Assembly: GCF_000154825.1 (NCBI RefSeq)
Contig: NZ_DS560019.1
Location: 1,220,501 to 1,284,500, forward strand
DNA: 64,000 bases
Direction of reading: 5' to 3'
DNA from: Anaerofustis stercorihominis DSM 17244
GTDB lineage: Bacteria > Bacillota > Clostridia > Eubacteriales > Anaerofustaceae
The notes beneath the pieces were generated by a model. The model saw nothing but the letters and a program-made list of their open reading frames with translations. It was not told the DNA's origin and did no database searches. Positions 14,286 to 18,683 of this stretch are shown here, piece after piece; the stretch's first letter is position 1; every line of letters begins with the position of its first letter. The position numbers and the translations under genes are program-made.

Positions 14286-15197
14286 TTACTTAAAATACTT
14301 CCTCATCAAATAAAAACTGAAACCCACTACCGAAAGACTCAAAAGGATGACCCCCAAATATCCGTACTTCCACGTAAGCTCCGGCATAAATTTAAAGTTC
14401 ATACCATACCACCCCGCAATAAGAGCAAGGGGAGAAAACACTGCGGTGATTATGGTAAGGGTCTGCATGGTCCTGTTCTGTTTTATATCCGCCTGTGCCT
14501 GATAAAGGTCTCTGAGATGTCTAGTATACTCCATGAGCATATCCACTTTGCCGTTGAGCCTTACGACTTTATTGGTAAATATCCTAAATAGTCCCTTATA
14601 TCCGTTTATAAATATGTCTTCTTCGTTCTCTTCGAAGACCATACCCATTTCTATAAGCTGGTCATAATAATTGCTCAAAACAAGGAGCTGTCTTTTCATA
14701 TTTACGATAAAATAGTTGAAATTCTTCAAATCTCCCGTTAATACCCTGTCTTCGATCTCGTTTATGTTCGTTTCGAAATGCTCCAGATAATTAAGGTCCC
14801 CGCTTATGAGTATATCCAAAAAGTCGTATAAAAAATGGGATACGGAAGGATTTTTCCATTCTCTCTTTTCTTTTATGCTTTCTATTATGGGCTTTACCAC
14901 ATTGTCGCTGTCGATAAAATATATCCTATGATCTTTTATATAATACCCGAACTTACCCTGCTTTAAGTCTTTTCCCATTTTAGGTATAAAGAAAGTCCCG
15001 ACTATGACATCTCTGTATACTTCGGATTTTGAAAAGTTGATATTGTCAAAATCGGCATAGTACGTCGGTATGCCTTTATCACGGCAGGCTTCGTGCCACT
15101 GTTCCAGGGTAAGTAAGATCACTACGTCCTCTTTTTCCCCCACATTATCCAAGCTTTCTATCTCTTCAAGTTCATTAGCTATTTTATAATACATCAT
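14286..15197 (-). CDS. corA: CorA family divalent cation transporter
   Basis: A 303-residue CorA-type Mg2+/Co2+ channel. A soluble helical N-terminal domain is followed by two transmembrane helices; between them is the selectivity motif YGMNF in AGWYGMNFKFMPEL. The second helix is GYLGVILLSLSVVGFSFYLM, with a basic end. GAGGTGAG precedes the start (ATG-ATG, first one taken). It opens a probable operon with the YgjP-like gene. Confidence 0.9.
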   Translation of the reverse strand: MMYYKIANELEEIESLDNVGEKEDVVILLTLEQWHEACRDKGIPTYYADFDNINFSKSEVYRDVIVGTFFIPKMGKDLKQGKFGYYIKDHRIYFIDSDNVVKPIIESIKEKREWKNPSVSHFLYDFLDILISGDLNYLEHFETNINEIEDRVLTGDLKNFNYFIVNMKRQLLVLSNYYDQLIEMGMVFEENEEDIFINGYKGLFRIFTNKVVRLNGKVDMLMEYTRHLRDLYQAQADIKQNRTMQTLTIITAVFSPLALIAGWYGMNFKFMPELTWKYGYLGVILLSLSVVGFSFYLMRKYFK

Positions 15198-15265
15198 CTC
15201 ACCTCGGTATGTCTATAATATCACATTTACTTACTATATTTTAACACAATATTGAGTTTTTATTT

Positions 15266-15341
15266 ATTACCTGAAGACTTCGAATAAGTCTTGTGAATTT
15301 TACATATGTAAAATTCATATGTGTGAAACACATCAGGTAAT
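15266..15341. repeat. cloverleaf-shaped palindromic element
   Basis: A 9-bp perfect outer stem (15266-15274 with 15333-15341, ATTACCTGA/TCAGGTAAT) encloses three contiguous perfect hairpins: AGACTT/AAGTCT (15275-15291), a 24-nt perfect palindrome (15294-15317) and ATGTGT/ACACAT (15319-15333). Almost no base is unpaired except the loops. A further hairpin (ATTTTTC-AAA-GAAAAAT, 15349-15366) follows, and CAGGTA(A/T)TATGAGCG is repeated at ~15334 and ~15412. It could be a small RNA, a mobile palindromic unit or a DNA structure. The rest of the 15198-15548 gap is AT-rich with no gene. Confidence 0.6.
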
Positions 15342-15548
15342 ATGAGCGGATTTTTCAAAGAAAAATTTGCGAGTATTCCTAACTTCAATCATATATTTAT
15401 TTCAAAGCCTTGCAGGTATTATGAGCGAATAATCTTTATTATTTGAATATTTTTTATTTTTATCAGTTGACATAATTTATTATTTAAAATAATGATAAGT
15501 TTGTATTATAATAATTAATAAAATATTTTTATTTAATATATTTAAAAA

Positions 15549-15578
15549 TAAAAAAAGCCCTTTAAAGGGCTTTTTAAA
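15549..15578 (-). terminator. terminator after the oxidoreductase gene
   Basis: AAAAAGCCCTTT/AAAGGGCTTTTT perfect palindrome with T-runs either way. Confidence 0.8.
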
Positions 15579-15588
15579 ATTTTAAATA

Positions 15589-16545
15589 TCAGCACTTCCA
15601 TGAATTTTGTATCTCTTCCAATATTTCCACGGAATGTATCGTCATATCTTTTGTCATTATATCGCTTTCCGGCATTCCTTTTTCTATACATTCGTTAAAG
15701 TGCTTTACTTCAAATGTCATTTCACATGACATCGGATAGGAAACTTCTTTTACTACTCTGTCGTCGTAGTAGTGTATAGTCATTTTGTCCGCTCTGTAGA
15801 AGTTATCCATTTCTATGTATCCTTCGCTGCCGTAGATAAATAATTTGTTAAGTAACTTTACATATCCGGAAATCTTGCTTGTTGCCAGTGCCTCGTTGTC
15901 TATCTTGAAGTTTAGTATACACTCTTTATCTCCGCCGAACTCTTTGCTTTTAAGCCTCATCCCGGAATATAATGAAATAGGTTTACCGAAAATATATTCA
16001 AGGTATTCTATGCAGTATACCGCATTCGTGAAGAACACTCCGCCTCCCTTTGATAAATCGAGTGTCCACGCATTGTAGTCTCCCGGGAATGAAGTTGAAA
16101 AATCGAGAAGTCCCACATCTCCTATTTCCTTGTTTTTGATTATGTCTTTTACCATATTGGTTATAGGAAGGAAGATTTCCTTTTGTGCTTCAACCAAAAA
16201 TAATCCTTTTTCTTTAGCTAATCCGAATAATTCAATGGCTTCTTCTTTTTTAAGAACCATAGGCTTTTCGCATACTACATGCTTTCCCGCATTCAAAGCG
16301 TCTTTTATATTTTGATAATGAAGGAAGTTTATCGTTGCGATATAAATAACATCTACATCTTTATCTTCATATAATTCTTCGTAGCTTCCGTAGTATTTTT
16401 CGATGTTTAATTCTTCCGCCTTTTGTTTCGCTTTTGCTTCTCCTCTCGAAGCTATTGCTGTGACTTCACCGTTCCCGCTTTCTCTGACTCCTTTTACAAA
16501 TCTCGGAACAATTGATGCCGTGCTTAAAATCCCATATTTGATCAT
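15589..16545 (-). CDS. Gfo/Idh/MocA family oxidoreductase
   Basis: About 318 residues. The N-terminal Rossmann domain reads IKYGILSTASIVPRFVKGV; the family EKP motif is in GKHVVCEKPMVLKKEEA; YIATINFLHYQNI matches the usual loop. The C-terminal half is the alpha/beta substrate domain. Substrates in this family are sugars or sugar derivatives, and the exact one is not deducible. I chose ATG 16545, preceded by AGGAG, over the upstream in-frame ATG 16584 that would add a non-conserved tail. Monocistronic with its own terminator. Confidence 0.88.
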   Translation of the reverse strand: MIKYGILSTASIVPRFVKGVRESGNGEVTAIASRGEAKAKQKAEELNIEKYYGSYEELYEDKDVDVIYIATINFLHYQNIKDALNAGKHVVCEKPMVLKKEEAIELFGLAKEKGLFLVEAQKEIFLPITNMVKDIIKNKEIGDVGLLDFSTSFPGDYNAWTLDLSKGGGVFFTNAVYCIEYLEYIFGKPISLYSGMRLKSKEFGGDKECILNFKIDNEALATSKISGYVKLLNKLFIYGSEGYIEMDNFYRADKMTIHYYDDRVVKEVSYPMSCEMTFEVKHFNECIEKGMPESDIMTKDMTIHSVEILEEIQNSWKC

Positions 16546-16656
16546 AACCGTTCTCCTAAAATAAAATATAGATATATTATACACTACTTTAAAAAATTAC
16601 TAAAGTATAACTTTTTAACTTTATATTTCCATAAGTATTGAATTTTAATAAGTAAA

Positions 16657-16693: not shown

Positions 16694-17503
16694 TCAAAAA
16701 TATAATTGTTTAATTCTTGATAATGCATTTTTTATGTAATTAGCACTTTCTTTATATTGTTCAAATATTACATTAAAGCCTTCGGTATCGTCGCAAACAA
16801 AATTCCAATAATCTTTGCCAATGAGTAATTCCTCTTCCGCAAAATATTGTTTAACTCTCTCCTGTTTCCATTCATTACCTTCTCCATACATATTATATGC
16901 AGTTGCTAAAAATAATTTTATTTTTTCATCGGGCTTATCTATTAATGAATTTTTTAATATAAAATATTCTTGAAGTAGAGCTAATTTTTCTGTTTTTGAT
17001 TTTTTATTATCTAAATCTCCTCCTGATTTTAATTCAATCAAATAATGTTCTTTCTTTTCCTTATTATAAAAATAATGGTCTGTTACATGTGATTTTTTAA
17101 AACTTCTTATATCACTGGGTATGATACAATAAAAATTATCATAATCTAATATTTGAGGCTTAGTATGCCTTTCATATTCTAAAACTATATAATCCATGTG
17201 CTGAGATTGTTGCGGAAGTAAAAAAGATTCTATATTACCTCTAACATCATATGATAATTTGGCTATGCTGTTACCCATGTTTTCTAATACTTTACCAAAT
17301 GAACTATCAAAACTTCGTACAAATGCACTGTAAAACATAAACTCTTTTCCTAATTCAGCTACAAAACAGTTGTTCTTTTTTCTGTTAATAACGCCTTTAG
17401 GGTCATTTACTTCGCTGGTATAGCGTAATTCAAATCCTTCAACAAAATTCTTTATGCTGGAATCAATGATTTGTTGAATTGCTTTTTTCTTTATTTCATC
17501 CAT
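16694..17503 (-). CDS. type II restriction endonuclease (possibly TdeIII-like)
   Basis: A 269-residue soluble protein next to a DNA methyltransferase, with one base between them, which identifies it as the cognate nuclease. A PD-(D/E)XK-like core is visible: an acidic residue in the VTDHYFYNKEKKEHY strand followed by LIELKSGGDLDNKKSKTEK, where E-x-K is the catalytic pair. SFLLPQQSQHMDYIVLEYERH recalls the TdeIII-type endonuclease family, but I hold that assignment at low confidence. Recognition sequence cannot be read out. GGAGA precedes the ATG. Confidence 0.75.
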   Translation of the reverse strand: MDEIKKKAIQQIIDSSIKNFVEGFELRYTSEVNDPKGVINRKKNNCFVAELGKEFMFYSAFVRSFDSSFGKVLENMGNSIAKLSYDVRGNIESFLLPQQSQHMDYIVLEYERHTKPQILDYDNFYCIIPSDIRSFKKSHVTDHYFYNKEKKEHYLIELKSGGDLDNKKSKTEKLALLQEYFILKNSLIDKPDEKIKLFLATAYNMYGEGNEWKQERVKQYFAEEELLIGKDYWNFVCDDTEGFNVIFEQYKESANYIKNALSRIKQLYF

Positions 17504-17504
17504 T

Positions 17505-18683
17505 TTATTCTCCGTTTAATTTATAATTTGTAATAAGTAAGTGTTTTGCTTCTTTATTATTTCTATCTTGAAAACTTACCAAATATTTTTTATCAAACAT
17601 AAATATACTTAATTGTTGATTATTAGCTGTTTTAATTCCTTTTTTATATAAATCAGAAATATATTCAGTATTTTTAATTATCAGCATCCAGTTGGCTTTA
17701 CATTCGTTAATTAAATAATCAGAAAGTCTTTTTTGATCACTTTTGTTAAATTCATTTCTGGCATATGTGCTGAATTCAGTGTCATAAGGAGGGTCTAAAA
17801 AAATAAAATCATTTTCATTTGGGACATATTTATTCATAAAATCGTAGAAATCTTTATTTTCTATAATAGTTTTATTTAAATGATTTATAAGATTTTTATC
17901 TTTAAAATAATTAATTTTATTTTTAAAAGATTTTCTATTATATGATATACCTCCATATGGTACATTAAATTTACCTGACTTATTATATCTAAACATTGAT
18001 GAATAACATGTTTGACGTATGAAAAAATAAATAGCACTGGAGAAGCCATCTGATAAATTTAGTAAGTTTTTATTATTTATTAAATATCTAAAATGCATAT
18101 AAAAAGCAGATTTGAAAGAACATTCAATATTAGAAATCAAATCATTATGTGAAATATCTCCTTTAGCTTTTTCCATTTTGTTCATTCTTACCATTTTGTT
18201 TTTTATATTTCTAAATAATTCATTTATAAAATTATCTATTTGATAATTGAAACTTCTATCTAATAAACCATTAAACTCGTCTTTGTTTGATAATACAAAT
18301 TGTGTTATTTCCTCAGAAAGTTGTTGCTCATTTAAAAAATTATTTTTATAATTTTTGTATAAATTTATTAATTCTTCTTTATGAAAATCTACAATATTAC
18401 TTATAATTTGCCAGTTATACTCTATGGCTTCAAGCTTATCTATAAATTCTTTGTTTTGTGTTTTTATCATTTTATATAATAAAATTAGTTCATCTGATTT
18501 ATCATTGATAAAATATTTATTAGCTTTTATAGTAAAGTAAACAGCTCCTCCGCCTACAAAAGGTTCATAATAATTATTTATTTTATCGGGAAGATGTGGG
18601 ATAATATGTGTTAATTCTTTTTCTTTTCCCCCCGGGTATTTCGTGATTGGAAATAGTTTTTTTTCTAAAACATACTTCGACAT
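17505..18683 (-). CDS. DNA adenine methyltransferase, D12 class
   Basis: A 392-residue N6-adenine methylase. Residues ~10-60 have the D12-class start KYPGGKEKEL, then YYEPFVGGGAVYFTI, the SAM-binding FxGxG motif. The catalytic DPPY is in FIFLDPPYDTEFSTYARNEF. It is longer than Dam (about 270 residues), with a central helical insertion (~90-200) that probably holds the target-recognition part. With the nuclease it forms a type II restriction-modification pair that protects against foreign DNA. A strong AT bias compared with proC/corA suits acquired DNA. Confidence 0.9.
   Translation of the reverse strand: MSKYVLEKKLFPITKYPGGKEKELTHIIPHLPDKINNYYEPFVGGGAVYFTIKANKYFINDKSDELILLYKMIKTQNKEFIDKLEAIEYNWQIISNIVDFHKEELINLYKNYKNNFLNEQQLSEEITQFVLSNKDEFNGLLDRSFNYQIDNFINELFRNIKNKMVRMNKMEKAKGDISHNDLISNIECSFKSAFYMHFRYLINNKNLLNLSDGFSSAIYFFIRQTCYSSMFRYNKSGKFNVPYGGISYNRKSFKNKINYFKDKNLINHLNKTIIENKDFYDFMNKYVPNENDFIFLDPPYDTEFSTYARNEFNKSDQKRLSDYLINECKANWMLIIKNTEYISDLYKKGIKTANNQQLSIFMFDKKYLVSFQDRNNKEAKHLLITNYKLNGE

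Follow-up and report, generated by a model that had tools for sequence, protein, structure and literature searches.

Structured intergenic repeats are known in Firmicutes from the bcr1 repeats of Bacillus cereus, which the element described here resembles in this respect. The REP and REPIN sequences are short intergenic palindromic repeats, often arranged as inverted pairs and regarded as non-autonomous mobile DNA, and a supplementary figure legend speaks of a REPIN 'clover' fold (PMC3116915, PMC3733652). The palindromic repeats of Volvox organelles, whose hairpins average about 50 nt, are described as mobile-looking, intergenic and nested in one another in both orientations (PMC2670323). The sole literature match linking Anaerofustis with palindromes concerns Prevotella. 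We report here on a cloverleaf-shaped palindromic structure in a 64,000-nucleotide stretch of the genome of Anaerofustis stercorihominis DSM 17244 (hereafter the window). It belongs to a dispersed family of non-coding elements that measure about 100 bp, conserve their structure and, in the collections searched, occur in Anaerofustis alone. Like REP and REPIN sequences, the element is intergenic and palindromic and forms inverted pairs at several loci; unlike them, it is about 100 bp long with five helices, has many copies inside other repeats, occurs in three Anaerofustis genomes in which no RAYT/Y1 transposase was found, and lacks a GTAG or CGTC tag at a constant place next to its hairpin (of 56 copies, 2 contain GTAG and 10 contain CGTC, with the reverse forms present in 1 and 4 and the positions varying). 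With the Volvox repeats and the mitochondrial double-hairpin elements it shares nesting, intergenic location and both orientations, but it resides on a bacterial chromosome and has a fixed multi-branched fold. It is small, non-coding, multicopy and foldable, as are the classical bacterial MITEs (PMC10969869, PMC2229807); in contrast to MITEs of the TIR type, its ends (near TTGACT and near GCGART) are not complementary, and no target duplication was seen at its junctions.

The genes on either side of the cloverleaf are CorA-like (14286-15197, -) and Gfo/Idh-like (15589-16584, -). The initial annotation had seen here a nine-bp stem enclosing three adjoining hairpins, with a fourth hairpin behind them, and had called the folding far from chance; the predicted fold bears out both statements, since the folding energy of positions 15240-15400 is -41.1 kcal/mol, compared with -22.3 +/- 3.34 in 200 dinucleotide shuffles (z -5.63), none of which was equally good. 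Its word 'perfect' is to be qualified slightly, as there are G.U pairs in H4 and at the outermost pair of H2, and the loop of H1 has 5 nt. Folded on its own, the exact cloverleaf interval gives the same cloverleaf with RNA parameters (-28.0), and DNA parameters give a cloverleaf from both strands (-19.9 and -19.5). H1, H2 and H3 abut without a spacer, and the 9-bp register 15266-15274/15333-15341 is equivalent to the one tabulated for the closing stem P1, ten bases being complementary in total. Directly beyond the Gfo/Idh-like gene, the window contains a type II restriction-modification pair (16694-18683, -) of a TdeIII-like endonuclease (PF09520) and a D12 adenine methyltransferase (PF02086).

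Table. Features of the cloverleaf locus, in positions of the window.
Feature	Position	Strand	Remarks
Closing stem P1	15265-15273 pairs with 15334-15342	+	TATTACCTG/CAGGTAATA; fold prediction
Hairpin H1	15274-15292	+	7 bp, 5-nt loop
Hairpin H2	15293-15318	+	11 bp, 4-nt loop; nearly perfect palindrome
Hairpin H3	15319-15333	+	6 bp, GAA triloop
Hairpin H4	15346-15370	+	11 bp, AAA loop; downstream of cloverleaf
ATGA, 5' side of motif Y-GA-[H4]-GA-R	15342..15345	+	First base shared with P1 pairing
GAGT, 3' side of motif Y-GA-[H4]-GA-R	15371..15374	+	Family motif count
Core-model match, cloverleaf and H4	15259..15381	+	cmsearch with model R1, 115 bits, E 3.1e-20; a match by construction, this copy being among the 14 that built R1
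Possible truncated second copy: P1 3' end, TATGAGC motif, H4-like hairpin	15413..15445	+	Weak

With a 161-base BLAST query, five other places in the same genome aligned to the cloverleaf, an extra hit being the palindrome matching itself, and a 201-base query against 40 relatives found five places in one of the two other Anaerofustis genomes. One match (L010 in genome G015), among those obtained by BLAST in 3 of 41 genomes, was short and chance-like, and was excluded before alignment. The covariance model from 14 copies (E<=0.01) detected at least 37, at least 5 and at least 14 copies in the three Anaerofustis genomes, designated G000 (the genome of the window), G001 and G002, respectively; as only the best 150 of up to thousands of first-look candidates were scored in these searches, these counts are minimum values, and distant relatives with weak scores may have escaped. 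The same model had no match in 10 other genomes of the family, and a model from 56 copies matched only two Anaerofustis genomes among 341 from the class, in a search that scored the best 10 candidates under stricter filters (G000 gave 10 matches) and for which G002 was apparently outside the genomes drawn. A pattern scan of 84,980 species genomes found four contigs, all of Anaerofustis stercorihominis DSM 28733, with a pattern that was modelled on the common subfamily and would miss copies like that of the window; the genomes scanned may not have included that of the window. Viral contigs gave no match with two patterns, plasmids none with one query from the window, and phages none with one query from G002. 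Among the at least 37 copies of G000 (best 150 candidates scored), 24 are on contig C1, 9 on C3, 1 on C4 and 3 on C5; C1 and C3 together make up about a third of the genome, and C5 has 1.29 Mb. The genome search and the covariance model, both suggested in the initial annotation, turned up many copies in the same genome and in relatives, and a lack of copies in relatives, which together with a missing transcript it had named as an argument against its own reading, is not what these searches found.

The copy in the window is a diverged, solitary member of this family. When eight host-repeat regions were used as queries, the window was matched at the cloverleaf core alone; the copy has lost the TTGACT mark common in the family, is one of two mixed cases at the H4 flanks, and has a P1 whose letters are unlike those of other copies while the pairing is kept. 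We consider this copy to be probably inactive. The 15-base motif CAGGTAWTATGAGCG at 15334-15348 is repeated at 15413-15427 with zero mismatches, the chance mean of 1.88 counting occurrences with up to 3 mismatches; the region 15413-15445 has no match to model R1, and its reading as a second copy is therefore weak. Gene order around the copy differs between genomes, in that G002 (contig C3) has four genes between the genes that flank the copy at 15197-15589 of the window. In G000 this four-gene block, which from its sequence we take to encode NrdR, NUDIX, SpoIIM-like and DacF-like proteins, sits on contig C4, where no model match was found within about 1.5 kb of it, so that a link between element and breakpoint, and with it a causal role of the element in the rearrangement, is unsupported.

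The fold is conserved beyond the sequence of individual copies. In a MAFFT alignment of 14 copies, built without reference to structure, 90.1% of cells pair and both sides change in 21 of 42 pairs; the alignment values were reached by 0 of 500 shuffles on four of five measures and by 4 of 500 on the number of pair types, and every slid structure scored lower. The alignment of 56 copies (55 distinct), which was fitted to the structure and is hence biased in its favour, has 91.7% pairing and two-sided change in 35 of 42 pairs (416 cells), with 0 of 500 shuffles on all five measures. The most constant positions are the junctions: the 5' base carries TTGACT, and H4 is preceded by AACAYGAGC and followed by GCGART, with GACT present in 48 and GCGA in 41 of the 56 copies. 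The bases flanking H4 covary (ATGA..GAAT in 20, ACGA..GAGT in 12, mixed in 2 and other in 22 of 56), and could, judging from the sequences, form tandem G.A pairs with a covarying Y-R pair closing them. GAA or AAA triloops, which are especially stable in DNA, close 29 of 54 H1 and 24 of 51 H3 hairpins, counts that serve as a hint only since the copies are related.

For about half of the copies, equivalent positions in other hairpin-rich repeats either contain the whole unit or lack it. An empty counterpart was found among the loci compared for 30 of 56 copies (4 of 199 for decoy points), mostly in similar host repeats elsewhere rather than at the same locus of another strain; for the other 26, the copy in the window included, none was found among these loci. 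In G001, the flanks of the five copies recur without the core at six places, to which a recheck added two; all eight empty places read CCTC-T6/7-G-ACAAGC, and the five filled places carry the core there. When the five filled and six empty sites were aligned, no target-site duplication was visible, the T runs at the junctions leaving one of 1-2 nt undecidable, and the ends of the element can be placed only approximately, as filled and empty sites differ by a few T's. Hairpin repeats of no fewer than three kinds act as hosts, represented by a tip hairpin (for example CCATATTTTGGACAAGCAAAATATGG), a long hairpin that contains GGTCGGATTT, and the site GGAAGAATTT. On contigs C1 and C3 of G000 (L049-L061), other hairpin repeats form long intergenic mosaics in both orientations that host the cloverleaf, one example (L052:2652-3217) folding at -201 kcal/mol.

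Larger differences were also observed. One intergenic gap of 706 bp with an inverted pair of cores in G002 corresponds to a gap of 39 bp in G000, which holds a small GGGGC hairpin, both flanking sides being about 90% identical between the two genomes. The inverted pair at L067:3048-3343 is 90% identical to that at L049:2852-3145, and the flanking genes differ. Touching pairs of + and - copies occur at several loci, among them C1:227222+/227345-, C1:188871+/188996- and G002 C6:22567+/22691-, and many copies are single. At four places, two species carry a copy in the same position and orientation (L071/L063, L068/L054, L067/L053, and L064 of G001 with L051 of G000), which indicates that some insertions are not recent. 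At L071/L063, agreement extends to 77 of 84 columns in the flank and H4 but to only 46 of 74 in the cloverleaf, a pattern suggestive of an exchange of hairpins. Such an exchange would suit a spread without a dedicated enzyme, in which replication template switching in or between hairpins, together with gene conversion among copies, would place copies of hairpins in the tips of others and correct the arms. Template switching has been proposed to create and maintain RNA hairpins, and can give rise to compensatory change without G.U steps (PMC8794818); the two-sided changes without G.U excess in most stems, and the inserts in or beside hairpins, are in line with it. However, a unit of about 100 bp with constant internal ends in at least three host contexts is easier to obtain with recognised ends, and the conserved junction motifs are left unexplained, for which reasons we regard spread without a dedicated enzyme as unlikely, if the most serious of the alternatives to a mobile element acting as folded DNA.

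The evidence on whether the structure acts as DNA or RNA is mixed with regard to strand. On the + strand, all helices of the 56 copies together show 123 G.U against 49 A.C, and with three column pairs removed 58 against 49. H4 is strongly one-sided (64 against 9) and P1 has 30 against 13, whereas H1-H3 together have 29 against 27; strand preference is therefore present in H4 and the base of P1 and lacking in H1-H3, and the near equality outside the three column pairs favours a DNA-level element over a small RNA. Among 29 copies in tandem gene pairs, 16 have the orientation of the genes and 13 the opposite one; divergent gaps hold 8 copies and convergent gaps 7, another 6 overlap seemingly spurious ORFs of 84-131 aa, and 6 close to the ends of contigs were left unclassed, genes being called by a simple ORF caller at 80 aa or more. 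None of the 56 copies was clearly within a gene, and no orientation preference to genes was found among them. Rfam had no match on the element above the gathering score of a family, either in the window or in 9 copy-bearing loci, where all 8 Rfam matches were elsewhere. An OLE RNA (RF01071, 455.8 bits) was detected at L018:3648-4262 (-) in G002, on the same contig as one copy.

These observations bear on a further alternative, a multicopy family of structured small RNAs or cis-acting RNAs that was formerly mobile. The strong covariation, the favoured + strand in H4 and P1, and the four loci with the same place and orientation in two species would agree with it, but the lack of an Rfam match, of orientation to flanking genes and of a G.U excess in H1-H3 argue against it, as do the diverse neighbours among the 20 flanking proteins scanned out of 73 listed, and we judge it more doubtful still than spread without a dedicated enzyme. 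The initial annotation had left the choice between an unknown small RNA and a mobile palindromic element; its mobile half gained support from the copies in relatives, the occupied and empty sites and the conserved structure, and its small-RNA half found no such support, with no Rfam match on the element, no orientation preference and no general G.U excess outside three column pairs.

Several candidates for a mover were considered. The partner TnpA of IS200/IS605-derived elements (Y1_Tnp, PF01797) was found in 0 of the 3 Anaerofustis genomes, in a search whose control detected PF01797 in 5 of 14 genomes, which sets the element apart from that group, and a Y1 transposase was rejected as the mover on this ground. 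The 20 flanking proteins scanned belong to diverse families and offered no candidate for a mover or a common neighbour gene. Reverse transcriptase was set aside as it was not found in all three genomes: RVT_1 is present in G000 and G002, the latter of group II type with a GIIM domain, and the search of G001 found none. In G000, the gene encodes a 319-aa protein (L124:1378-2337, +; C1 near 222859), which is presumably retron-like and lies about 3 kb from a copy. Copying through RNA by a chromosomal reverse transcriptase would be served by these two genes, but they are of different kinds, and G001, where none was found, has the five copies that are most alike; such a retro-mobile element appears quite improbable. 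A folded-DNA site for site-specific recombination, as in integron attC, would fit a structure more conserved than its sequence and the clustering of copies on two contigs, but appears very improbable, since the fold is multi-branched rather than a single long hairpin and the context does not suit gene cassettes, with many copies inside other repeats and ordinary genes as the neighbours scanned. A Csm6-like gene (HEPN and CARF) was noted in G001 at L065:504-1832 (-), about 0.9 kb from a copy, and a type III CRISPR system may be located nearby.

The reading we prefer, with rather more confidence than doubt, is that of a non-autonomous mobile palindromic element acting as folded DNA, the mobility of which we infer. 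Points against it are the 26 copies for which the loci compared gave no empty counterpart, the lack of a visible target duplication, the one-sided G.U of H4 and P1, and the failure to find Y1_Tnp in any of the three genomes or a reverse transcriptase in more than two. Its acting form would most likely be single-stranded DNA, for example on the lagging strand, and insertion would take place at T-rich positions, inside or beside other hairpins. The marks for a putative enzyme may be TTGACT, where P1 begins to pair, together with the AACAYGA that precedes H4 and the GA-R that follows it, while of H1-H3 folding alone would be required. More tentatively, and with the balance of probability against it, the element may represent a new class of mobile DNA that is set by a multi-branched single-strand fold and not by sequence: a 'hairpin cassette' of about 100 bp, entering the hairpins of other palindromic repeats and recognised via its tandem G.A-flanked hairpin by a putative enzyme outside Y1/RAYT, as a bacterial counterpart of the nested organelle palindromes.

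Covariation as strong as that observed here is usually taken as a sign of functional RNA. Here most stems have G.U and A.C in nearly equal numbers, the copies show no preferred orientation to genes, and they are present or absent as units, which makes the element a test case for a DNA-level or mutational origin of paired stems. Its filled and empty sites, in gut bacteria that can be cultivated, may also offer a way to find what moves orphan palindromic repeats, a long-standing problem.
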